Assembly: GCF_042453785.1 (NCBI RefSeq)
Contig: NC_091668.1
Span: forward strand, 937,501 to 1,001,500
From: Malus domestica
Lineage: Eukaryota; Streptophyta; Magnoliopsida; Rosales; Rosaceae
Length of the DNA stretch: 64,000 nt
Direction of reading: 5' to 3'
The stretch's first letter is position 1. Each line of letters opens with the position of its first letter. The position numbers and the translations under genes were made by a program. Below, piece after piece: positions 6,760 to 53,566 of the stretch. The notes beneath the pieces are model-generated. The model made no database searches. It was not told the DNA's origin and saw nothing but the letters and a program-made list of their open reading frames with translations.

Positions 6760-7144
6760 AAGGGATTCTTATTTTTTGGAAAAAATGAGGATTAGGTGTG
6801 GGGTCTACTACTCCACATCGGATTTCAACGATCGGAACCGTCTGTTTTGTAAGTTTCGACTCTCGATTCATAGATCATCCTTGCAAAAATTAAATTCAAT
6901 CCGAAACCATTTGCCTATTTAATTATCAAGATCAAATTTCATTATTTCTTATATAACAAAGTATTCGTTTATTTCTTTGAACCCAATTAGATATCTTAAA
7001 TATTTCCGATTTAACTAATATTTTGTAAGAATGATCTATGAGGTTCAATTTCAAAAATGGATGATTCAGATCGTTAAAGTTCAATATAGTATGGATCCCG
7101 CAACTAATTTTCATTTTTATAAAAAAATGAGAATCTCTTCCCTT
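6760..7144. mobile_element. Foldback element, ~385 bp with ~180-bp arms
   Basis: The left arm (AAGGGATTCTTATTTTTTGG, later TTTCAACGATCGGAACCGTC) matches the reverse complement of the right arm (AAGGGAAGAGATTCTCATTT, later CTTTAACGATCTGAATCATCC). Similarity runs through most of the element, so the RNA would fold into one long hairpin. No transposase is encoded and no clear target duplication was found. Confidence 0.7.
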
Positions 7145-10744: not shown

Positions 10745-10913
10745 GGGCATGTCAAAGTATCCAAAAGGAATAGATACAAAGATTGGTGGGAGATAAGAAT
10801 CTGCAACCTGAGAATTTATGCCAAAGGCACAAAGGCAACACTACTGCACTGCAAACCTCCCATATCAGACCCCACCTTAAAACCCTAGCAATTTCAAATC
10901 ATGAAAAACATAA

Positions 10914-11104
10914 AGGGATCCTCTCCGGATCTCTTCCTTCTAATCCACTAAGTTAGGGGATCCATACTGTTGAAATTTGATCCAACGGCTAAAGTTATTA
11001 TAACTTTAAAAATTAACCCCTGTGTTATAGCCGTTTGATTAAATTTTAACGGTACGGATCTTCGAACTTAGTGGATTAGAAAGAAGGGATATGGAGAAGA
11101 TTCA
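10914..11104. mobile_element. Foldback MITE, family B copy 1
   Basis: Left GGGATCCTCTCCGGATCTCT and CTAATCCACTAAGTT are mirrored on the right by ACTTAGTGGATTAGAAAGAAG. The centre holds AACGGCTAAAGTTATTATAA. Related copies lie at ~24769-24963, ~25243-25414 and ~30370-30538. Confidence 0.7.
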
Positions 11105-11193
11105 TTTCTTAAAAAACTAGCTTACTTGGGGAAAAGTTAACCTCCATTTCCCATGGTACTTTTGTATCCTCTTACTGTCTAACCTTGGAATGC

Positions 11194-16529: not shown

Positions 16530-19241
16530 ATGTATCCAGTTAATGGGGATCATGCTTCACAAAATGGGAATGCGAGAACTCACGAGCCGCCTGTTTTCGA
16601 AATCGGAGAAGACTACGATTTTCTGAGGTTGCTGGACAGGCCTAGACCGGTAAGCGTGGAGAAGAAGAGATCATTCGATGAAAGGTCGTTCAGCGAGTTG
16701 TCTTTTTTGGGGAGTCCTAGACCAAGCTTTGACACCAATCCCATGGTTTCCGATGCCTGGGAAACCTTGCGCCGCTCTGTAGTTCACTTCCGTGGCCAGC
16801 CTGTTGGAACCCTTGCCGCCGTCGACCATTCGGTCGAAGAACTTAACTATGATCAGGTAAACTTTTAATTAAAAATAGAACTGGAGGGACACTACGGACT
16901 GAAGCTTTAGAGCTCGTTTAAATGTACTTTTAAAATGTATGAAAGCATTTTTAGAAAAAATATTCTTAGGTTTCAAAAGTACTTTAAGTGCTTTCTGAAA
17001 GAAGCACCAGTTATGTGCTTCTTCTGGAAAGCACTTTAAGTGTTTTTTCAGGATTTACTTGTATTTTTATTAAGAAAAGTACTTTAAGTGCTTTATGTAA
17101 GAAGCACCAGTTATGTGCTTCTTCTGAGAAGCACTTTAAGTGTTTTTCCAGGATTTACTTGCATTTTTACTAAGGATTGGTTCTAAAAACATTTTCACCA
17201 AAAGCGTTTTTAGTCATTTTAAAAGCACATACAAACGAGCTCTTATATAAACTATATATCATAACATAACCAGTTCCTTTTGTGTATACTTCTCTCGAAT
17301 TAATGTTACAAATTTATTTCATGCTTTTCTTAGTAATCTTTTTGTATAGGTGTTTGTTAGAGATTTTGTGCCAAGTGCATTGGCATTTTTGATGAATGGA
17401 GAATATGAGATAGTGAAGAACTTTCTTTTGAAAACACTTCGCCTGCAATCACTGAAGAAATTTGTGGACCAATTCAAGCTAGGAGAAGGGGTCATGCCGG
17501 CGAGCTTCAAAGTGCACCATGACCCCATACGAAACTACGAAACCATAACTGCGGATTTTGGCGAGACCGCAATCGGAAGAGTGGCTCCGGTCGATTCTGG
17601 ATTCTGGTGGATCATATTGCTTCGAGCTTACACAAAGTCGACCGGGGACTCTTCGGTCTCCGAAATGCCCGATTGCCAAAACGGCATTCGCCTCATCCTC
17701 GATCTCTGCCTCTCAGAAGGATTTGATACCTTCCCTACCCTGCTCTGTGCTGATGGATGTTGTATGATTGATCGCAGAATGGTTAGTTTACTTGCCCATT
17801 TTATCAGACGCCTTCAGTGCGCTAATTACTAATTAGTCATATTTTGCTTTAGTTATAATCTAAACCCTACATCCATTCTTTATCAATGGACACTTAGTCG
17901 ATAGTAGCGATCAAGAAAAATCGGCTAAAATAATTATAAATTACATCTTAATCGTTAAACTGATCAAAATTAATATTGACAATGTATCGATTTGATATCG
18001 ATAACGTAACGAGAAGAGATTAACCACTCGTCATATGATATGATTGATTAGTCATGTCATGGTTTTCTTCTTTTAAGTAAGAAGTTCATTTTTATTTTAT
18101 TAAATAATAGATTGTCGATATTGCATATATTTCATTATCGATTATATGTGTAACAAAATTTATGCCGACACGTTTCATTAGCATCTAATATCGACTTCTG
18201 GCGTAGAGAATTTTTGTTTAATCAAAATACGATATGATGTGTATTGCAGGGTGTTTACGGATATCCAATCGAAATTCAAGCACTGTTCTTCATGGCATTA
18301 CGATGCGCACTGGTTCTGCTCAAGCAAGACAACTGCGGCAAAGAATTCGTAAACCGCATAACGGACCGCCTCCACGCCCTGAGCTACCACATGCGCAGCT
18401 ACTTCTGGCTGGACCTGAAGCAGCTCAACGACATCTACCGCTACAAGACGGAGGAGTACTCTCATACGGCAGTGAACAAGTTCAACGTCATGCCGGATTC
18501 GCTGCCCAATTGGGTGTTCGATTTCATGCCGAGCCGCGGCGGTTACTTCATTGGGAATGTGAGCCCGGCCAGAATGGATTTCCGGTGGTTCTGTTTGGGT
18601 AATTGCATGGCGATTTTATCGTCTTTGGCGACGCCGGAGCAGGCATCGGCGATCATGGATCTCATTGAGTCGCGGTGGGATGAGTTGGTCGGAGAAGTGC
18701 CGTTGAAGATTTGCTATCCAGCAATAGAAAGTCATGAGTGGAGGATTGTTACTGGCAGTGATCCAAAGAATACTAGGTGGAGTTACCACAATGGAGGCTC
18801 TTGGCCAGGTGAACTTATCGCCTATTCACTTATTTGAAACTGCTTTTGTACAAAGTACTTACTCATAAGCGCCTTGTTAAATGGCAAATGAAATTTGACG
18901 GAAAATATGTTACGTAAAATAATTTTATTTTTGTGATTGGCGCAGTGCTGCTGTGGCTGTTGACGGCGGCATGCATAAAGACGGGGAGGCCCCAAATAGC
19001 GCGACGTGCGATCGAGCTGGCGGAGAGCCGGTTGTCGAAAGACGGCTGGCCGGAGTACTATGACGGGAAGCTAGGGAAGTACATGGGGAAGCAGGCACGG
19101 AAGTACCAGACATGGTCGATTGCCGGGTACTTGGTGTCGAAGATGATGCTGGAAGACCCGTCTCATTTGGGCATGGTAGCATTGGAGGAGGACGAGCAAA
19201 TGAAACCCCTAATAAAAAGATCTGCTTCATGGACCTCTTAA
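16530..19241 (+). CDS. Alkaline/neutral invertase (GH100), cytosolic type, 537 aa
   Basis: The enzyme hydrolyses sucrose to glucose and fructose in the cytosol. Coding exons are 16530-16856, 17350-17781, 18250-18808 and 18946-19241 (1,614 nt). Family blocks appear in order: [21 protein letters not shown] across the first splice, [39 protein letters not shown] with the conserved acid Asp, [40 protein letters not shown] with the conserved Glu, then [16 protein letters not shown], and a C-terminal Trp-rich helix block ending KRSASWTS. The length matches the cytosolic clade (~540-560 aa). The N-terminus lacks a transit peptide, so a plastid or mitochondrial form is unlikely. The conserved Ser-rich N-terminal part ([18 protein letters not shown]) is a feature of this clade. 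Intron 1 carries a MITE. The gene looks intact. Confidence 0.96.
16910..17242. mobile_element. MITE in invertase intron 1 with an internal 100-bp tandem duplication
   Basis: The terminal repeats are left GAGCTCGTTTAAATGTACTT and, on the reverse strand of the right end, GAGCTCGTTTGTATGTGCTT. TTA flanks both ends, consistent with a 3-bp PIF/Harbinger-style duplication. Inside, AGTACTTTAAGTGCTTT starts at 16978 and again at 17078, and each 100-bp unit contains its own small hairpin (AAGAAGCACCAG...CTTCTTCT). Confidence 0.7.
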
Positions 19242-20529
19242 ATGTCTTTTTTTTTCTTTTCAATTTTCTTGCTGTATTTATGCAAATGTGTGTTACAATA
19301 TTGTAAGCAAACACTTTTGGCAATAATCGAAGACCAACTTGTGTTGGTGTTGTGGCGTGGAAGTCTACTGCCACAAGCAAAACTGGAAACGGGTCTTGAC
19401 TTTGTGGGTTGCATGCCATTTCGCATGGTTTTCTTTTTTTGGAATTTTAACGAAAAACTCCCGGTATTTTTTATTTTAACGAAAAATTATATTTTTATGT
19501 TAAAAGTCAATCATGATACTATTCACTTTACCCTTTATTTTGTCCTTATCGTTAAAACTCAAAGTTTTCAAACCCTTTTAATTAGTTTTATTTTATTTTT
19601 AAAATTTATTTTATGCATTAAATGGCAAATGTGTATTAGGTAAAAATGAATACTATTAAGCTATAGTTCTAATAGCGAGTCGTTAGGTGATTTGTGTGTC
19701 TATACTAAGGGTTAAAAGGTAACAAGGCTGGGTTGATCACTTTGGTTTGGTGAGAATTATGGTTAAACATAATAATGGTGGTAGTGATTTTCATATTTTC
19801 GTTTTTTCTTGTGCAGTCTCTCCTTGTGTTTAATTGATTTTTTATATTTAATTTGTTCAATCTAAAGATTAATTAATAAATAAAAGTGTAGTCTCGAGTG
19901 ATGAATCGTAAGGGAGAAGAACAAATAATGTTTTCGTTTGACATATATTAATTTCTTTTGTAACATGTGTTGTTACAATAAGTTGTCGTCCATTCAAATC
20001 ATAACGATTTTTTTCCTTTCCCACTATTTTACATCTTTCCATTTGTAAGCAAATTTACAAGTTCCAAGTAAAACCATAATGTTTAGGCAAAGAAAAAGGT
20101 AAACTGTAATCACTCATTGTTGAGTGCATTTTTACTTTCTCACATTGATTAATTGTTGTTAAATTAGTTTAAATTTCAAGACGTTTTAAATTAGTTAAAC
20201 TAAATTAATCTAATGGTGAATTACCTTCTTCCTGGTTTTTCTCATCTGCATGACCCCATTACCTTTAAAATAAGCACCCAATTAACCGTAAAACGAAATG
20301 AACTTTTCCCTCCGTTTTATCTCCTCTGATGTCGTTTTACGGCTGGCGGGAACGAGTGAAAAATCGGTGGTGTCGTTTTGTTCCGGAAGCGCTTGGCGTA
20401 CGTGTCGTTTGCGTGATGGAAACTCCAATGAGGTGGAAAGCGGAAGGTGCAGAAGAAGAAAGTCCCCAACAAATTTTCAAGTCAAATACTTCCTCCTCCT
20501 TCACGTTTCAGAGTCGCACGCAAAGCACG
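19242..20529. other. Invertase 3' region and F-box promoter
   Basis: A family C MITE copy lies at ~19441-19589. The remainder is AT-rich with no supportable gene. The last ~200 bp is the leader region of the F-box gene. Confidence 0.5.
19441..19589 (+). mobile_element. MITE, family C copy 1
   Basis: It begins GGAATTTTAACGAAAAACTC and continues through ACTATTCACTTTACCCTTTA and TTTTGTCCTTATCGTTAAAA. It matches copies at 28257, 36785, 39658 and 51620. Confidence 0.8.
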
Positions 20530-24205: not shown

Positions 24206-24768
24206 GTTGTGTGGTCTCATCTCATTCATTTGAGATAAAGCACAAGTCCCCCTTTCTAAGTGCAGGTGTGGCCAATCGGGCACATGTACTTCATCCAAAT
24301 ATTTTATCGTGTAATTAAGAGTATATTTTCTTTTTCTTATTTCTCTTATTGATTCATATGACGAGGTTAAAGAGATAGCGATAGTCGAACAACAACGATC
24401 ACCAAAGCTAATTTGTACATAAGTAAGACAACACATAATTTCGAGCTTTGTAGATGCATCACTCTTATATAAGGTTAAATATTTGTTTGCTTGGCAAATA
24501 CTAATTACTTGATTAGATGTTTGGATGGAAAATGATTGGGTCCAAAGCCAACTAATAATCCACTACTAACCACTTCATTAGTGCCTTTTGGTTTGGTAGT
24601 CGACTCCACTTCATATATATATAAGTTGGGCAGAAGAGTCCATTATCCATCCTATCACATTTAAAAAGACCTGTCACTTTTCTGGCCAGCCAGCAAAAAA
24701 CAAGAAAGGACCATACACGGCCTAAATAAATAAAAATCCATATATAGAATGGCTTGATATTTATGGAA

Positions 24769-24963
24769 AGGGATCCTACCATATCCCTTCTTCTTAATCT
24801 ATTAAGTTCTAAAATTCGGACAATTAAAATATAATTAAACGACTATAAAAAGGGATTCATTTTTAAAAGTTATAATAACTTTAGCCGTTTGATCAAATTT
24901 CAATAATCTGAATTTCCAAACTTAATGGATTAATAAGAAGGGATTCGGAAATGATACATTTCC
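24769..24963. mobile_element. Foldback MITE, family B copy 2
   Basis: GGGATCCTACCATATCCCTT and TTAATCTATTAAGTTC are mirrored by CTTAATGGATTAATAAGAAGG. The interior has TAATAACTTTAGCCGTTTG. Confidence 0.7.
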
Positions 24964-25242
24964 ATAAATATCAACCCAATTCTATATATGGATTTTTTTA
25001 TATTCAATTACCTTAATTCTCAACTATTTATCTCAGCCACCTGATTTTAAAGCAGTACATGTATCTATCAACCCAAGATTTTTGTGTTTTCTTTTTTGTG
25101 CAGGCCTGGAATATAACTTTAAAATTCACCTTTTTAAAGTTATATTTCAGAGTTTCGAACGCTATTCTAATTTATCTTTATTTCTGAGTTAAATCAAGTG
25201 AATTCTATTCTAATGTATATTCGGTTATGTCAAGAGATTTGG

Positions 25243-25414
25243 CTTCGGATCTCTTCCACCAAGATCACTGATCAAGTGATCCGGACCTTGAAATTTCATT
25301 CAACAGCCCACATGTTTTGATTCCTTAAAAGCTATAATAATTTTTTGCAGTTGGATGAAATTTCAAAGGTCCGAATCACTTGATCCGGTGGTCTTGGTGG
25401 AAGAGATCTTGAGA
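25243..25414. mobile_element. Foldback MITE, family B copy 3 (diverged)
   Basis: CTTCGGATCTCTTCCACCAAG and GATCAAGTGATCCGGACC are mirrored by GGTCCGAATCACTTGATCCG and CTTGGTGGAAGAGATC. The two arms remain well paired. Confidence 0.7.
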
Positions 25415-27733: not shown

Positions 27734-28256
27734 CGATCACGAGGACTGAGCTGTCCATAAGGAAAATTTTGGACCATATGGTCTCTCACAAGTCAATGCA
27801 GTTGAAGTTGAAATTGACGTGCCCACTTTACTCAAAACTGAAAAGCCTAAATTATATCATGGGCCTTATTTTCAGTGACCCAGAGCCCAATCCCGCCCAT
27901 TTTGCATAATTAACAAGCTGAAACTCGAATTTGTAAGTGCCGAAACCCTGACGACAGAAACGTCTGGATTGTGAGGCAGATGCAAGTAATTCTTAGTCAT
28001 ACAGACACAGTGCTTAATTTGTTACTCAATTAGGATGTGACCAAAATTATGACCTGGATTAAGTTAATTAAGCAGTTTAACAACTCTTAAAACTGTCTCC
28101 TTCCATACACTTACATTTATACGTATACTTGTACCTCACTCAATTCTCATGCATGCATGCATACTTGGACAATTTATTGCATTAAACTCATTTAATATCA
28201 CCATTGAATTTTTCATGTTTTTTATTACTGTAATGCTAGGGAAACTATTTATTTAA

Positions 28257-28408
28257 GGGAACTTTAACGAAAAGCACCCGGTACTGTTCACTTTAACGAA
28301 AAACCACATTTTTACACTAAAAAGTCAATCCTGGTACTATTCACTTTACCCTTTATTTTGTCCTTATCATTAAAACTCAAAGTTTTCAAGTCATTTTCAT
28401 TAGTTTTC
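28257..28408 (+). mobile_element. MITE, family C copy 2
   Basis: It begins GGGAACTTTAACGAAAAGCA, has CCCTTTATTTTGTCCTTATC inside and ends CATTTTCATTAGTTTTC. The reverse complement of the end (GAAAACTAATGAAAATG) resembles the start, an imperfect TIR. Confidence 0.85.
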
Positions 28409-28628
28409 TTTTTATTTAAACCATATTTTGTAACTCATATAACGTGATTTTGTAACCCGTAGGCCTTGCATGGTTCCGTCCTCATACGACAATTCTTGTA
28501 ATTGTGTTCATGCATGTATTCGTGTGTGTTATTGAATTTTTGCTATCAGTTATGTTTTAAAAAAACTTTGTCATCGCGGTGTCACTGAATTCAATGACCT
28601 CATATCCCATAACCCTCATGAACGTCTC

Positions 28629-36390: not shown

Positions 36391-37723
36391 TAAATTCTAT
36401 TGGGAAGTAGCTGGTTCGTAAATTATTTCATTCTTTCTTCTGTTAAGAAGTGGGGACTTGCTGCTTAACTTTATCGCGACTCAATAAGATATGAACATGT
36501 ATAAATGATCACCCGCCATTTCGGCCAGGGCTTGATAAGCTGGGGCATTCGGCTGGTAGGGAAATTGCCCTAGACTATTAGGCCATTGAGGTTTTGTAGT
36601 AATCGTTTCATGAACATATTGGGGGGCACATTGTTCATCTTTTACAAAGAAGATAATAGAAAATTAGAAATGTTTGTGCTCTACAAAGTACTCGGTCGTA
36701 TATTGCATTGGGGATCCAATCTGGCTTGTGTTTCGGAAAATGGCTTCAGCTTTTCTAAATCAAAGCAGAGCCAATAATCTGAAAGGAAAACTGAAGAAAA
36801 GGGTTTGAAAATTTTGAATTTTAATCAAAAGGACAAAGATGTGGTGTAAGTGAATTGTACCATAAGTGAATTTTTGGAGTAAAAATGTTATTTTTGTTAA
36901 AAATGAACAGTTCCGAAAGTGCTTCGTTAAAACTCCCTTCAAAAGACTTGGGAATAAAATTTAGCTTAGGAAGATTTTGGTATTTTTGGTGATGTTTGGT
37001 CTCTTTCGTAGGTCCCTTCGTTTGTACAACGTTGTCTTGCACTAAAAGGACGTGATCTGATTTCAAAAGCATATTTCGTTTTCAATCCTCAAAAAGAGAC
37101 ACCTACCTTCCTTCCACAACAACGATATCTCAAATCAGTAACGCATTGTCGATCTCACAACATAAGAATATGCAGGTTAATCAATGGATTTCACCCGAAA
37201 ACGTCCAGTTTTCCACGGGGTTAAACATTGCTTTGTTACAATTCAAGTTAAACACCTGTAGAACTGCAGAGGGATCGAAAGGTCCCCGCGAAATGCATTC
37301 AGCAATACCGTTGGTTCGCACAGCAGGATAGGAGCTCTCACCTTAGCAACCGAAGCCAACATAACACGACCCCTGTTCCAAGAAATGTCAAAGAAAACTG
37401 ATTTGTCTGCTAACTTACATATACCCATTGTTCCATGTAAACTACAAAAGTGCCTATATGGAAACAGAAAAACTGAAAAATATATACCGTTGGTCGTGTA
37501 TATGCCTTCAATTATATGAATATGTATTTCAAACACAAATGCCAAAATGGGGGATATACCGGGTACAAAGGAGATACGAAAAAGAGAAACCTTCAAGTTC
37601 AATTGAGGTTTACTACCGAACGGAATTCACATAAGGAATGGTGATACAAGAATTGACTGAAACAATCTGCAGAAACAAAGCACCAAACTTCAATCCTAAA
37701 AACTTGTCACACAAGGATAATCT
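36391..37723. other. Convergent 3' regions, one MITE
   Basis: The 3' UTR of the 679-aa gene and that of the AP-2 sigma gene face each other here. A family C MITE (36785-36938) lies between. No further gene is supportable. Confidence 0.5.
36785..36938 (-). mobile_element. MITE, family C copy 3 (diverged)
   Basis: GGAAAACTGAAGAAAAGGGT starts the copy, TTTTAATCAAAAGGACAAAG follows, and it ends TTCGTTAAAACTCCCT. It is in the opposite orientation to the 28257 copy. Confidence 0.75.
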
Positions 37724-39322: not shown

Positions 39323-41286
39323 TGTCGAAGCAAAATTGAAGAGAAATTAACAGCAGAGGAACCCCAAACTTCGGGACGAAAGCTACCAACTTTTTTTTTT
39401 ACTTTTGGTTTCTTTGTGCGATGTCGTTTCGGAGTTCCAATGAGTAGCGGGGCGGGTAAGAGAGGAGGAAGAGGGAGAGGGAGCTGGCGTAACTTGGGTG
39501 ACGGTCTTGGTCAACGTAGACATCCAACGGCTAATTTGAATTGTTCAAGTTTTGTGTGATCCTGAAATACCGTCATCATGTGATATAACTAATTCATTCA
39601 TTTAAAACTCTTGGATTTTGTTGTCGGTCCATCTTAGAATCACACAATAATTGATTAGGAAAACTAATGAAAAGGGCTTGAAAACTTTGAGTTTTAATGA
39701 TAAGGACAAAATAAAGGGTAAAGTGAATAGTACCAGAATTGACTTTTTAGTGTAAAAATGTGGTTTTTCATTAAAGTGAACAGTACCGGGTGCTTTTCGT
39801 TAAAGTTCCCTTTTATTAGCAACTTATAAAATGAATGACAAAATGAAGATTCTAAACCAATTACTAATACCACGCTCAGTAAATATTCTATATTCTGGAG
39901 GCTCAAACCAATTACTTGAGAAATCAAAATTCTTGCTAGTGATTTCACTAGAGTTTCTCTGTTATCAAAATGCTTGCTAGCGATTTCACTAGGTTTTTTG
40001 GATTTCCAGAAAGGCAAATTTCGTTACACATGTTATTACTGAAATTTGATTGTCTAAATTTAGATTGTGAAAGGAAATTTATCTTGTAATCTTTTCTAGG
40101 TATTTGAAAGTTTGCAACTGGCAAAATGTTCCCAACAGTTTTCGGCTAGCCAAACAGCTAACTTACTTAACAACAATCAGTAGTTAAGTCATAACCACGA
40201 TAATACTACTCTAAGCTACATTACAAGAGGAGCTTATTTACCCACACAATCCACCACTTAAAAGCTCAATTTAAGTTACTTAATCAGATAGCGTAACTTT
40301 ATTTAAATTTAACTCTCCATCTATTAATTAGAAAAATTTAAAATATCGTCAAATTTGTGATTAAGATGAGTGTTTGGACAACAATTGGGACTGGACTGAT
40401 AAAACAATGTCGACTTGTGGATGCGAGACGCAACAACGATCTGCGCTTGGTGCTGTTAGGTCGAAATCGGAATGCTTGCAACATGTTTTTTCAGTTTTTT
40501 AGTATATATCCTGTCCTAATATGCTTACCGTGACTTGGACCGCCAGCATTTCCTTTTTATATGTTCTCCTGTCCCATCAAATATTATTTTTTGTAAAACA
40601 CAAGGTAAATGAAGAGGAATCTGGCCAAGCTTAAGATCTTGTTAATATGGTTATTGATAATGATTAGTTGAGAGTGATTGATGATTCTCCTAAACCGTTT
40701 TATTATTGGCTTAATTATTCTCCTTTTGAAATTCTCAAATTTTCGTCAACCTTGAGTTGTGGCCGCCGATCAGATTTGATAAATTACTGTTCATGTGTAC
40801 CCTTTAATCCGTTCATTGGGTGCTAAAAGGGAGATTCATTGGGTGCTATATGGGAGAAGGGATTCCACACGTTATTCGCTAAACAATTAATACGATGTCA
40901 TGTGTTTTTATATTTTTACATGACAGAGTCATTAATCTGGAATGTCGCAGTAAAACATCAGAATATGTAAACGCTACTACTACTTGTGGATTGTAGTCCA
41001 TGTTGGTAGGCAAGCCCAATACTAGAAGAGTTGGGTTGGAATTGGTGGAGTTTGTTCTGTTGGTGTGGGTGTGTTGGGGCATTTGGCGAAGAGTCTCTCT
41101 CTATTGCCGAAGTCCACGGAGCCACCCACCCACCGCCTTTCGCATTCACAGATATGAACAGATATCTAGTGAAGTGGACGCGAAGAAACGAATTCAACCT
41201 CCCCAGTCCCTCCTATAACACCCTCCCTCCCCCTGTGAGTCCCTCTCTCTCCCCCTCACTTGTAAGCTGTCAATCTAACCAACCAC
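39323..41286. other. Intergenic stretch with one MITE
   Basis: The AP-2 sigma promoter lies at the left and a family C MITE at 39658-39810. From 39811 to ~40980 nothing is recognised. The last ~300 bp is the WEB gene promoter region. Confidence 0.5.
39658..39810 (-). mobile_element. MITE, family C copy 4
   Basis: GGAAAACTAATGAAAAGGGC starts the copy and CGGGTGCTTTTCGTTAAAGT with TCCC ends it. This is nearly the exact reverse complement of the 28257 copy and among the least diverged members. Confidence 0.88.
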
Positions 41287-45659: not shown

Positions 45660-46140
45660 ATAAGAAGTATTCGTTGATTTGTCTCTTGAACTTTTATAGA
45701 GTCGTCAAATTTTTTCTTTAATTTTAATTTTAACCGATTACCTTCTGTACTTTTAAAATTAGCCAATTTTCACCTTGAACTATCCCCATGATTTTTTTAT
45801 AAATAGTCAATTTCTCCTCTTGCGTTAGATTATAAAATTTTCATCCAATGCTTCATTAATCTAATTTTCATCATTTTTGCCCTTATACAGTTGGCATGCA
45901 TGTGTTGTCCGTGAGATCAAGATGGATTAAATATTGGATGAAAAATTTTAAAATCTAACACTGGGAGAAAAATTGGCTATTTATAAAAGTTCAAAATGGT
46001 AATCAGCTAAAATTAAAGTTTAGGAGGGGAAATTGGCTAATTATAAAATTTCAGAAAGGTAATCGACTAAATTTAAAATTCAGGAAAAAAAATGACCATT
46101 CCATACAAGTTCGGGAGGAAATGAACAAATATGCCAACAA
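45660..46140. mobile_element. Large foldback element, ~480 bp
   Basis: The left arm reads TTAGCCAATTTTCACCTTGAACT and TAAATAGTCAATTTCTCCTC with GTTAGATTATAAAATTTTC. The reverse complement of the right arm reads TTAGCCAATTTCCCCTCCTA and TAAATAGCCAATTTTTCTCC with GTTAGATTTTAAAATTTTTC. The arms carry internal short repeats (a motif like CGATTACCTTTCTG-AATTTTA occurs more than once). No coding capacity. Confidence 0.65.
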
Positions 46141-46756: not shown

Positions 46757-46930
46757 GAGAGATTTTTCAGTATGATCGGAACACGAGATGGTAGATCATG
46801 TGTCACTATACAAATTGTGGGATATGTGTGTTAAAAAATTAATAACTTTAAAAATAAAATTTCTTACCACCTATATGAAAACACGTGGTGTATCACCCGT
46901 GTTCCGGTCACGATGAAAAATTTCTCGTGG
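46757..46930. mobile_element. Foldback MITE, family E copy 1
   Basis: GAGAGATTTTTCAGTATGATC and GGAACACGAGATGGTAGATC are mirrored by GGTGTATCACCCGTGTTCCGG and TCACGATGAAAAATTTCTC. The same ends occur at 47166-47326. Confidence 0.75.
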
Positions 46931-47165
46931 GGGTGTTCTAACATTTTACGAGGTGGGTATTAACTTGGCTATAGTGCTATTGCTGATATATCACGACCCG
47001 AATATTCAACTAGAACACTGAAATCGAGGTATGTTGGCCGACACTTAAAAGGTGATGAAGTCATAATCTGAAAATGAGTAATGCTATAAATTAATACCAC
47101 AATGTAGAACTAAACTAATTACTCAAACATAGGGCGAAGCGCCTAAATGATTCGAAAAAGAGAAA

Positions 47166-47326
47166 ATTTTCATTGTGACCGGAACACAAGTGGTACACCA
47201 CGTGTTTTTATATAAGTGGTGGGAAATTTTATATTTTAAGTTATTAACTTTTTAACATACATATTTCGCTATTTATATAGTGACACATAGTTTACCATCC
47301 CGTATTTCGATCACACTGAAAAATCC
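47166..47326. mobile_element. Foldback MITE, family E copy 2
   Basis: AATTTTCATTGTGACCGGAAC and GTGGTACACCACGTGTTTTT are mirrored by CATAGTTTACCATCCCGTAT with TTCGATCACACTGAAAAATC. It lies 240 bp from copy 1. Confidence 0.75.
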
Positions 47327-48139
47327 ATCTTTGAAAAGAGCGTAACAGGAATAGAGTCTCGCCGAAAACCCGATAGTAAACAGAAACCCCCATAATGCGA
47401 AAAGAGCCGAGAGGATGCATCTGAGTTGATGGATATTAAGCTGGTTAATAATACTAATCAAACATCTGCTGGCCCCGGCTGATCTCTCTTCTACAATAAT
47501 TCAGTATATTAAGAATTAAACCAATTAATTAGTTCAAGTGTAGAAAGCGATCGACCTCGGTTGATAGACTTCCAATAATTATCAACCTGTCAATGCATGC
47601 TAATCTACTAATTAATTTATTGAGGAAATGGGATGAATGGTCCCTGAACTATGCTCGAATTGTAGATTTAGTTCCTAAACTAAAAAATCATTAGATTTGG
47701 TCCCTAAACTTAACAAAATGTATAGCATTGGTCCCTCTATACTAACACCGTGAGATTTTCCGTTAGTTTGATGACGTGGTCTTTGTGGGCTCCATATTTT
47801 TGTTCACTAAATGCCATGTGGCTTAAAAATTCAAAATAAAAATAAATACAAACATAGAAAAAGAAAAAAAAATAAAAAAGTAAAAGTTTTCTCTCTCTCT
47901 CTCTCTCGTCTTCCCTTCTGCCTCGCCTCCTCCAAACCCCAGCTGAGTTCGTGATCGTAGAACCCCATCAGAGACAACTCCAGCAAATTACCAATGATCA
48001 GATACAAGCACAGCGGAAAAAAAAACCCCGAAGATCGAAACAATTATTGAAACCCAGAAAAGATTATCAAAAGTGAGAAGATTTCGTTTGTATTTATTTT
48101 TTTAGTTTAGGGAAGACGGGAGAGAGAGAAGGGAAGGGA

Positions 48140-48271
48140 AGAAGGGAAATTGCGTTTGAATTGTTCGGCTGCACTTCTTCTTCTCCTTCATCGGCTCGCC
48201 AACAACCAGTACCCACCTCCAACCTCCATAGAAGAAAGAGAAGAAGGGAAATTGCGTTTGAATTGTTCGGC
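48140..48271. repeat. Direct repeat inside the Pack-MULE
   Basis: GAAGGGAAATTGCGTTTGAA, followed by TTGTTCGGC, occurs at ~48140-48168 and again at ~48243-48271. The repeat is either inherited from the captured promoter or made during capture. Confidence 0.8.
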
Positions 48272-48361
48272 CCGATCGGGTGCTGCGCAAGGGGACACGT
48301 GGAAGCAATCGGTCGATGCATAGGTGTGAGAAGTCAAAAGTCAAAGGCTTGACTGAGAGAG

Positions 48362-48491
48362 ATGCCGGAGGAGGATTTGGTGGACATAAAGTTCCGGCTG
48401 TACGACGGCACCGATATCGGGCCGTTCAGCTACTCATCAGCCTCCACCGTCGATATGCTCAAGCAGAGGGTCGTCTCTGATTGGCCCAAAG
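48362..48491 (+). pseudogene. MUB (membrane-anchored ubiquitin-fold) exon 1 fragment
   Basis: The ATG at 48362 starts MPEEDLVDIKFRLYDGTDIG, then PFSYSSASTVDMLKQRVVSD and WPK, ending at a splice-donor-like AAAG|GTTTTC. This is the first ~43 residues, the first half of the ubiquitin fold, of a plant MUB protein. The remaining fold and the C-terminal prenylation CaaX part are absent because the transposon arm follows. The reading frame is intact up to the donor, so capture was probably recent or the piece was lightly constrained. An ACACGTGG G-box-like motif lies at ~48293-48300 in the captured upstream DNA. It cannot encode a functional MUB alone. Confidence 0.88.
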
Positions 48492-49193
48492 GTTTTCTCT
48501 TTGCCACTTGTTTCTTACAACTTAATTTCCATGTCATTTTGTTTGCTATGAAGTTTCTTCGATTTAATTGGGTTCATAAAATTCCGAATTTGTGAGTTGA
48601 TTTGGGTTCGGAATTCGATTTATGTCAATCTGGGTTTGAAATTTCAGTTCTTGGCAATCAGAATTTTAGCAAATTTTGATAGAATCTGTTCAATTGAATC
48701 TTGAGCTAGATTTCATAATAATCAGATGAGATCCCAACATAATTTTAATTTGGGAAATCAGAATTTTGGTAGAAGTTGTGGATTCAGTCACAAATTTGTT
48801 TCGATCTTCGGGGTTGTTAATCTTTTTTCTTTTTCTATGTTTGTATTTATTTTGATAATCTTTTCTGGGTTTCTTGAATTTTTTGAGGCAGAAGGGAAGA
48901 CGGGAGAGAGAGAGAGATAACTTTTACTTTTTTATTTTTTTTCTTTTTCTATGTTTGTATTTATTTTTATTTTGAATTTTTAAGCCACATGGCATTTAGT
49001 GAACAAAAATATGGAGCCCACAAAGACCACGTCATCAAACTAACGGAAAATCTCACGGTGTTAGTATAGAGGGACCAATGCTATACATTTTGTTAAGTTC
49101 AGGGACCAAATCTAATGATTTTTTAGTTTAGGGATCAAATCTACAATTCGAGTATAGTTCAGGGACCATTCCTCCCATTTCCTCTAATTTATT

Positions 49194-50247
49194 AGTAGCT
49201 GAGTTATTAGCTAACACTAATTAGTATAAGTACGATTAGTTGGACTGCCAATTAGGCTGTAGAAGAAAGTTTGGCACGAGCCTTAATTAATTAGAAATTA
49301 CAGTTTCAGTATGGACTATGGACCGCCACTGATCTATCATTAACATGATTGTACGTGCAAGATTTGTCAGTAATCTCAACGAGGATTACATTAAACATGA
49401 TTTTTGCAAAACCCTAGCTACTTGTTTCCAATTATATATACTATCCGCCATAACTATTTTAACTTTGTTTTAATCTTGCAATGAGCGATCACTACGTTGA
49501 TGCCATAAATTTATCGGCTTTTGCACACTTCAATTCAAACACTCCAAACAATGAGAAGTAATAGTGAGTGTGCATCTACTCGCGGATGTTGCATGTGCAT
49601 GCAATTATCATCTGTCAACTATATATGCATTGTTTTATTACTATCGTGATGTTTCAATACAATAATATTATACATACGTATTTATCACTGTGATAACAGT
49701 GAACTTGTTCTACACCAGTTAATTACTTTGGAGTTGGTGATGACGAAGTTCGTGACTTGGTGAGTTTTTGTTTATTGGTCAAAGTCAAACATGAACGCCT
49801 CCATCAAGACATAACTACATGTAGTAATAATTTAAGAGAAATGTTAGGTAGACTAATTTTTTAGATCACATTATAAACCACCACACTATGTCATATAATT
49901 TAAATAGACAGTTTCTCTAGTATTACCCATAATTTAAACAAAGAATCCAACCATCAACAACAACAACTAAATCATATAATCTACAAAATACGATTCAAAT
50001 AAATAATCTCTCCAGAATTACCATGCAGTAAATACAAAGATTATCTCACGTGTGGCCCTTATTATTAGTCTTGGACTCCTGGCTATTGGTCATGGCTTTC
50101 AAGTGTGAGTAAGACCTCTCATAAATTTAAACGTGATGACTCGTGTAAGGAGACCCAGCACGAAATAAAGACTAGTTCTTGGTTTAGGTGTGTGATTTAG
50201 ACACAGATGATATAAGCTAGCCAGGCATCCATTGAAGATTGACAGAT

Positions 50248-50897: not shown

Positions 50898-53566
50898 TCA
50901 CGACTCCATAGCCTTGTAAATGACTACGAAGCATGGGAGGATGGCCTTCGGATTATAAACAACAAGTTCCTCGAGATTGGAGTAGATTCCAGCGAATCCG
51001 GCTACAGAATCGTAGGAGCCAGCAGCAGCCGGCAACTGGGACAAGCCATCCTCCTCCGGTGGCGCATCGTCCGCAATGCGCCTGACCCTGCCAGCAATGA
51101 CACGGCACACCAGCATGGCCCTGCGCCCGTCCGTACAATTAAACGAGTCGTGAGCCCTACCGCTGCTGGCAGTGGTCCGCACTCCCTTGCTCCCACCACC
51201 TTGATCACCTTCCGCCACTGCTTTGCCTTGAAAGCCGTGACGGATGATCGTGCACACTCCGCAGCCAGGTACGGAGTCGCACAGGCTGGATGAGCCACGT
51301 GCGCCGAGCGTGCACGAGATGCTGGTGCAGTGGAACCGCAACAGCTCGTTCCCGTCTGCCGCGCACCTAGGGTTCTTCCGCGTGCTTGTCAGCGCACGGT
51401 TCTTCACTGCATCACGGCAGTCCTCGAACCGTTGAATCGTACGCTGCGTGTTTTGTACCTTTAGTATGCGTTCGATATTGCAGAAGGGGGTGTCTTTCTT
51501 GAGCCAGCTTGATTTGAAGATTATTTCCACGATATTTCGGCCGGAATCTTCGACGCCAAGCTCCGATACTGTACAAATACAAGTTAAGATATTATTACTT
51601 TTAGATACTTTTATATTAAAAGAAACTAATGAAAAATGTTTGAAAACTTTAAGTTTTAACGATAAGGACAAAATAAAGGTTAAAATGAATAGTAACATGA
51701 TTGACTTTTTAGTGTAAAAATATAATTTTTCGTTAAAGTAAATAGTACAATGAGTTTTTCGTTAAAATTCTCTTTATATTATGGAATCTTATTCAAATAT
51801 GGTAAAGTTATAGAATTTGTAAAAGAAAATGATTCCTATTAATGATAGTATTTATTTTCTACTTGTCGGTGGGGTCGTGATGGTTGAGTTTTGAGTATTC
51901 GCCGTCACAAGTGGGGTAAATGATGTAAGAGAAAACTTTCAATGTCCGGGAACATAACCAGTAAACCAAATATATTAATACATAATTTCAACTTGATGAA
52001 TCGGATTATATTCTCGACATATTAAAAAAATTCTTATAAAAAACAAAATATACATGAAAACAAGTTACAATTAAACGACGTTCAAATTATCTTAATAATA
52101 CGTCGTTATATTAACTTTACATAAAACATTGTATGGTATTATTAGGCGAGATACAAGTTCATCTCCCAGTTATTTAAGGCAGGCCACCTTACAACAGAGA
52201 ATCATTTATTCGGTTTGTGCATGGACAGCTGTAGGTTTGTACTCAAGTTGACCGCCTTTATGATTAGTTATATGCCAGATGCAAGACTCGCGGTAAATTA
52301 AGAAGCACAATTTTTTATTCATGCACGAAAAAAAAATTCATTTGATTATTTTCTCAATTTTACCAGTATTTTTTTTTAATAAAATGATATTCAAAATCGC
52401 TCGAACTTACGAAAAATAAAATTCAAATTAACAATATGAAGATATATACATTATTTTAGCTAACTGATCTAAAACACAATTTTAACTCAAAATTAGCTTG
52501 TAAGAGTGCACAAAGTTTTAGCCAAACAAAGAGGCTATCAATAAAATATCAGAAACTATATATGGAGACGTGGTTGCGTGCACTTTATCACATATATAGC
52601 CATACAAACTCACTATTTCTATGTAAAAAAATTTAAATAACATATGATGGAAATTTGAAAGAATAAATCATGAGAAAAGTATATTGCCTATAAAATAAAT
52701 AAACCATGAAATAATTAAAGGAAATTCAGCATGAAAATGATTAATTTCGTGTGAAAAATAGATTATGTAGTACCAGCATGGCGAATTGCTTGGTGATGCT
52801 CCAAACTCTCCACCTTTGGGAAGATCTCTCCACACTGAGAGCAAGCACAAATAGTAGACCTAGGAACTGGGTACCTGTATAAACATAAGAGTATTTTAAT
52901 TTATTTTTTTTCTAAGTGGTATTTTAGACTATATTAAAATCTAAATTACGGGGACAAAAACTCGAACTTCAGTGAAAAAATGAGCATACTACTAAGTTAG
53001 CTAAATTAAGGTTTATAAATAAAAAATGTGCAAATTAATATCTACCTGCTAGGGTCAACGATCATGTGGCACTCGTAACACCCAGAGAGCTTCCGGAATT
53101 GCATTCCTCTGGAGGATGATGACGTCTGGTAAGCAGCAGAAGAACCAGAACCGTTGGATCTGATTGACCGAGTTGCAGGTTTCCGAGCCAGTAACCCGGT
53201 TTCCTGACCCAGAGTGCTACTCTCGGGCGACGAGCTGTCACCTCTGTGAACGACCCTAGTGTTCCCATGAACGACATCTCTGAAGCTGCATATGGAGCTG
53301 CAGGATGACCCCACCTTCGAGTAGCCTCCACCGTGGCTGGCAGCTGCGCCACCGACAATATTATTTTTCGATGGGTCGTGTACTCTAGACCCTTCGATCT
53401 GTTTACAGGTCAGGAGGTTCTTGATGTGGTCCCATGAGGAGGAGGAGGATGGTGGTTTTTGCTGCTTTTTGTTGGTTGAAGACGACTGCTTTTGCCTGCG
53501 TTTTGATGGTGGCGTTTCTTTCTTCTTGGGCTCTGTGGCCTCTGGTGCAAAAGGGAAGAGAGCCAT
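50898..53566 (-). CDS. C2H2-like zinc-finger protein with PARP-like C-terminal region, 430 aa
   Basis: Exons 53566-53046, 52874-52774 and 51568-50898 join to 1,293 nt. The N-terminus is basic and Ser-rich (PSKRRQKQSSSTNKKQQKPP), then WDHIKNLLTCKQIEGSRVHD. A Cys-pair block GCYECHMIVDPSR precedes the zinc finger encoded mainly in exon 2: ICACSQCGEIFPKVESLEHH, then QAIRHA (Cx2C...HxxxxxH type). Exon 3 holds a long conserved region: NIVEIIFKSSWLKKDT, ERILKVQNTQRTIQRFEDCR, DGNELLRFHCTSISCTLG, GCGVCTIIRHGF, RAMLVCRVIAGRV, SYDSVAG, NLEELVVYNPKAILPCFVVI. This last part has the fold pattern of PARP catalytic domains, though ADP-ribosyl transfer should not be assumed. It matches, from memory, Arabidopsis At1g75710/At1g62520-type proteins. 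Probably nuclear. Confidence 0.9.
51620..51771 (-). mobile_element. MITE, family C copy 5, in an intron
   Basis: GAAACTAATGAAAAATGTTT, then AACGATAAGGACAAAATAAA, ends at TTTTTCGTTAAAATTCTC. It sits in the second intron of the C2H2-like gene, ~50 bp from exon 3. Confidence 0.8.

Follow-up and report, generated by a model that had tools for sequence, protein, structure and literature searches.

The 64-kb window, the whole stretch of apple DNA that was analysed, contains an element with long inverted ends that carries the first exon of a MUB gene (Table 1). Between its target site duplications (TSDs) the element measures 1,563 bp, and the perfect 9-bp duplication claimed for it in a sequence-only reading of the same DNA is indeed there, the two copies of TAATTTATT being identical at 9 of 9 positions and adjoining both inverted ends. 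The chance of 9 matches at a fixed place is ~6e-6 with the base composition of the window, and is higher in AT-rich DNA. The terminal inverted repeats (TIRs), 303 and 300 bp long, align over 303 columns, of which 292 are identical, 8 are mismatches and 3 contain a gap; the repeats of ~300 bp and ~97% identity that had been judged by eye were thus placed at the right coordinates, and alignment gives 96.4% identity over columns or 97.3% over aligned bases. Six of the 8 mismatches lie within the outermost 85 bp, and the next 157 bp are free of differences. The interior is 960 bp (47925-48884), exactly the length that had been stated.

Table 1. Parts of the element and of its target site, in window positions.
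Feature	Position	Strand	Basis or content
Left TSD, TAATTTATT	47613..47621	.	9-of-9 repeat
Left TIR, 303 bp	47622..47924	+	alignment to reverse complement of 48885-49184
Left subterminal stretch	47925..48072	+	two inverted exact matches to right side
Left-joint patchwork	48073..48129	+	13 unexplained nt, then three right-TIR copies
Presumed MUB 5' UTR/upstream DNA, GC-richer	48130..48361	+	composition, repeat, motifs
MUB exon 1	48362..48491	+	ATG, 43 codons and first base of codon 44
Presumed start of MUB intron 1	48492..48795	+	31% GC, GT donor; right limit approximate
Right-joint patchwork	48796..48884	+	three pieces, with 7 and 11 unexplained nt
Right TIR, 300 bp	48885..49184	-	alignment to left TIR
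Right TSD, TAATTTATT	49185..49193	.	9-of-9 repeat

With the whole element as query, no second copy of its ends was found in the 64-kb window. Exact TIR patterns gave 0 matches in viral contigs (two patterns) and 0 in genome contigs (one pattern), collections in which a plant family is not expected; when the letters of the TIR ends were searched in the literature, none of the matches listed was about this transposon, as judged by title and the start of the abstract. Rfam and tRNA scans returned 0 matches. When the flanks are joined, the empty site CTACTAATTAATTTATTAGTAG (47605-49200) is self-complementary at 20 of 22 positions, but because 44 of the 22-mers in the window reach the same figure this near-palindrome may be chance, and we rejected it as meaningful. 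A further pair of inverted repeats, 46761-46926 and 47160-47325 (166 bp, 85% identical), ends ~290 bp upstream of the element; its ends were viewed and no target duplication was established, and it is perhaps another DNA transposon or MITE.

Other features lie elsewhere in the window. A retrotransposon gag frame occupies 397-1362 (PF03732, E=3.4e-13); ~800 bp from it, two direct copies of 210 bp that are 99.5% identical overlap each other (2159-2368 and 2340-2549). Parts of an alkaline/neutral invertase (GH100) gene are found at 17350-18837, where two frames have PF12899 matches, 17350-17832 (E=2.3e-64) and 18244-18837 (E=1.9e-93). A dispersed repeat of ~155 bp, which may be one known from apple and pear DNA, is present in five copies (19441-19612 and 28255-28429 on the plus strand; 36787-36936, 39659-39818 and 51610-51781 on the minus strand) that are 75-97% identical between pairs, the copy at 28255 starting with GGGAACTTTAACGAAAAGCACCCGGTACTGTTCA. 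Several hairpin-like stretches of ~160-460 bp, which are self-inverted with 66-79% self-complementarity and may be MITEs or foldback elements, lie at 24725-25004, 25248-25408, 45668-46131, 10912-11107 and 6760-7139.

The identity of the cargo is given by the plus-strand frame 48362-48490, which is open for 43 codons from its ATG and matches Pfam PF13881 (E=1.7e-13). When the exon 1 peptide was compared with solved structures, it matched Arabidopsis MUB3 (4x57, E=3.7e-20) and 1se9 (E=3.7e-9), the latter being the structure of MUB1 (PMC4996978); over the captured residues the identity to MUB3 is 36 of 43 (84%) and to MUB1 51%. These matches bear out the description of a MUB exon 1 with an ATG, an intact 43-residue frame and a splice donor. 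The exon base G at 48491 is followed by a GT donor at 48492-48493 (boundary CCCAAAG/GTTTTC), so that the earlier placement of splicing "from 48491" was right to within one base, and the phase of the donor suits the next residue of MUB3, a Gly. Given this donor and its phase, the ~300 bp that follow the exon are presumed to be the start of MUB intron 1.

The likeness to Arabidopsis MUB3 and MUB1 extends over these 43 N-terminal residues only, whereas the remainder of the ubiquitin fold, the inhibitory loop and the C-terminal prenylation site are absent from the element. In AtMUB3 the E2-inhibiting loop, which blocks E2 charging, is reported at Pro76-Phe77 and the prenylated residue is Cys115 (PMC4996978), and because both loop and lipid anchor lie downstream of the captured residues the element is not a working MUB gene. 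Among the literature matches listed, in a thin search of openly licensed papers, no report of a MUB-carrying Pack-MULE was found.

The GC content is 50% in 48130-48361, 56% in the exon and 31% in the presumed intron, compared with 36% in both 5-kb flanks. The direct repeat of ~30 bp noted upstream of the ATG was found as 36 nt at 97% identity (48134-48169 and 48236-48271), and the G-box-like motif as CACGTG at 48296-48301; three W-box cores at 48332-48354 had gone unmentioned. The pattern TATA[AT]A[AT] has no match anywhere in the element. The stretch 48130-48361 is likely MUB upstream DNA; its description as a captured promoter is a conjecture.

Given that an intact frame and a clean target site had been put forward as signs of recent movement, we considered what each can say of age. 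In trials with 2, 3 or 4 random substitutions (3000 each) the 43-codon frame and its ATG survived in 87, 82 and 76%, and because most randomly substituted frames stay open the intact frame says little on age or function; it is uninformative as a sign of recent movement, and we rejected it as evidence of either such movement or selection. The perfect TSD is real, yet it is weak evidence of youth. The TIR divergence (JC 0.027, or 0.9-1.9 My at assumed rates) was likewise rejected as an insertion age, since the arms of a MULE need not match at insertion.

Pack-MULEs are reportedly a known system from the work of Jiang in 2004, and gene-carrying plant transposons are by now well known, so that the element adds one more of that kind. 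TIRs of MULEs are reported to be usually 100-500 bp and their TSDs usually 8-11 bp (PMC4858842), and the present arms of 303 and 300 bp and the 9-of-9 TSD fall within these ranges. The 960-bp interior offers no room for a transposase: the stop-to-stop frames of at least 30 aa that overlap the element number 36, and the longest is 107 aa. Pfam scanning of the frames 47831-48043 (minus) and 48077-48352 (plus) gave no match; besides exon 1 the scan covered these two of the 36 frames, and the others were judged by length. The host gene fragment is MUB exon 1 with its donor. By anatomy, then, the element agrees with each defining feature of a Pack-MULE that was tested, as the proposal of a MULE-type element with a gene piece had it, and the feature, with an account of capture and repair attached, is very probably a Pack-MULE, a Mutator-like element that is non-autonomous, carrying MUB exon 1.

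The element resembles the Pack-MULEs of rice, tomato and Arabidopsis in its long TIRs, 9-bp TSD, host gene fragment, want of a transposase and GC-richer cargo. In one survey such elements number 220 in tomato and 46 in Arabidopsis, and lengths of 1000-1200 bp are the commonest among those of tomato (PMC3310237), a peak near which the present element lies in size. MULE-derived genes of rice and its relatives are described as GC-rich, with GC-rich parents (PMC4858842); that the upstream DNA and exon are GC-richer than the flanks corresponds to that description and supports the Pack-MULE reading. The element is unlike known Pack-MULEs in that its cargo is MUB exon 1 (no MUB term occurs among the matches listed) and in having scrambled pieces of its own end regions at both joints.

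This last feature is absent from the sequence-only reading. Where element meets cargo, on the left as on the right, the DNA is a patchwork of exact copies, 16-31 nt long and partly misordered, of terminal and subterminal sequence from the element itself. At the left joint three pieces copy the right TIR (48086-48101 equals 48953-48968, 48098-48113 equals 49119-49134, and 48109-48129 equals 48893-48913); they have the orientation of the right TIR and overlap one another by 4 nt (TTTT) and 5 nt (AGGGA). At the right joint 48823-48853 is a 31-nt copy of the TIR stretch 48937-48967, and two further pieces are inverted exact partners of the left subterminal stretch (48796-48815 of 48024-48043, and 48850-48873 of 48049-48072); here 48823-48853 and 48850-48873 overlap by 4 nt (TTTT). 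The second and third left pieces, 48098-48113 and 48109-48129, fit the right arm one base better than the left (16 versus 15 of 16, and 21 versus 20 of 21), and both arms fit equally well for 48086-48101 and for the 31-nt right piece.

Matches of this number are rare in shuffled DNA. Comparison of the interior with the right TIR gives four exact matches of at least 14 nt, and among 500 dinucleotide shuffles of the interior 492 gave none and 8 gave one. When 48073-48133 was shuffled, three matches occurred in 0 of 2000 trials and one or more in 14 of 2000; for the two inverted matches seen between the two subterminal sides, 7 of 2000 shuffles gave one or more and 0 of 2000 gave two. Some of the patch pieces are T- or GA-rich, and single short matches and the 4-nt overlaps are weak evidence; the strength of the evidence for the patchwork comes from the number of pieces and from those of 20, 21, 24 and 31 nt.

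We considered whether a decayed or deleted inner TIR gave rise to the left patchwork and rejected this, because the order 48953, 49119, 48893 is not collinear with a TIR. Multiple-TIR MULEs, described mainly from tomato and Arabidopsis (PMC3310237), are similar in having extra TIR sequence inside the element, but there whole TIRs stand in tandem, whereas the present element has no second full TIR beside the outer one and holds only misordered, non-collinear pieces of 16-31 nt.

Such joints are most simply explained by repeated switching of template at short matches while DNA was being repaired or replicated, and the pieces and their overlaps suggest that template-switching repair lies behind the patchwork; against this account, three junctions between pieces carry unexplained nucleotides instead of an overlap (13 at the left joint, 7 and 11 at the right). 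The patchwork may date from an ancestral form of the element, and may have arisen earlier or later than the capture of the MUB piece. The sequence of events would begin with a break inside the element, after which repair or replication would have copied up to ~670 bp of the MUB locus at the DNA level; the presumed intron start within the cargo counts against a spliced mRNA as the source. Copying would then have jumped from template to template within the arms of the element, a short stretch at a time, until the break was rejoined, and would so have left a patchwork at both joints, and after the capture a MULE transposase from another element would have recognised the TIRs and inserted the element at this site.

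The mechanism by which Pack-MULEs acquire genes is called yet to be understood in section 4.2 of one paper (PMC3310237), and capture routes are the subject of a review (PMC13317346). A parallel comes from animal Pack-TIRs, of which 190 (67.6%) are reported to show 1-36 bp of microhomology at no fewer than one joint (PMC8277862). As in the present element the microhomologies are short, and the authors interpret them as signs of gap filling, or of fork stalling and template switching, routes that the same paper calls worth exploring for plant Pack-MULEs; the hosts differ in being animals, and the transposons in belonging to other superfamilies. Maize Ds elements with filler DNA (PMC3260210) are also similar, as DNA transposons with captured gene fragments, one including its intron, for which replication errors in break repair are the suggested cause, and differ in belonging to the hAT superfamily and in having 11-bp TIRs. 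Our literature search found no paper linking MULEs, gap repair and SDSA. It is tempting to see in the element a readable footprint of gene acquisition by a plant MULE, in which synthesis hopped between micro-matched stretches of the arms (TTTT, AGGGA, TTTT), and thus a plant case of the gap-filling or fork-stalling and template-switching route of animal Pack-TIRs; we give this proposal somewhat less than an even chance.

Another route to an element of the same kind begins with two related elements inserting so as to flank the MUB 5' region, their outer ends then moving as one unit. Tandem insertion with re-mobilisation is the course favoured in a paper that proposes it for Pack-CACTA, gives examples and suggests it for all DNA superfamilies and Pack-TYPE elements (PMC8903248), and the 8 aligned positions at which the arms differ, with 6 falling within the first 85 bp, are possible if the ends came from two elements. 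However, the short, misordered and overlapping arm copies at both joints are not predicted by such a course, which would need an additional messy deletion repair, and we regard it as an unlikely, if respectable, competitor to copying with template switches.

It is also possible to ask whether the element acts on its host, by being transcribed from its upstream DNA (G-box, W-boxes) or its TIRs to yield a chimeric transcript or small RNAs that would lower parental MUB. The ATG, frame, donor and motifs are present, and the TIR arms, when joined by a short loop, are predicted to pair strongly as RNA (mfe -505 kcal/mol). On the other hand, a simple scan found four weak acceptors between 48560 and 49184, which would give products of 44-52 residues; no Pfam match was found for 50898-51761 (minus), which is the longest frame over the next 2.6 kb; and Pro76-Phe77 and Cys115 (PMC4996978) fall beyond the captured residues. 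We consider such an effect improbable. Transcription, whether it started in the TIRs or in the upstream DNA, would yield either a truncated peptide of 44-77 residues in the readings tried (77 from the unspliced frame), lacking the functional parts of MUB, or an RNA that could pair with the transcript of the parent gene. Most likely the element now does nothing for ubiquitin biology and the exon is mobile-element cargo.

Two further alternatives concern what the inverted repeats and the exon are. The inverted ends might belong to another superfamily with target duplications of 8-9 bp, or to a foldback element, but TIRs of ~300 bp with a 9-bp TSD sit inside the published MULE range (PMC4858842), and a source other than a MULE is very improbable. 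Scarcely credible is a genuine resident MUB gene whose start is merely bracketed or interrupted by inverted repeats and which runs on beyond 49193, a continuation named earlier as one observation against capture: although ATG, frame and donor are intact, a perfect TSD lies directly outside the TIRs and tblastn with the rest of MUB1 and MUB3 found no convincing later exon, either in the following 14.8 kb or in the rest of the 64-kb window (best E 0.12, short scattered matches), and this candidate was rejected.

The reading kept is a Pack-MULE with copied arm pieces at its joints. Its MUB cargo is a curiosity and not evidence for new ubiquitin biology. Pack-MULEs move and reshuffle pieces of plant genes, and the step at which these are acquired is called open for plants in two papers (PMC3310237, PMC8277862), with a third favouring re-mobilisation (PMC8903248). 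Joints that keep non-collinear copies of the arms are a concrete and checkable footprint that may bear on that step, and are more useful than the functional suggestions.
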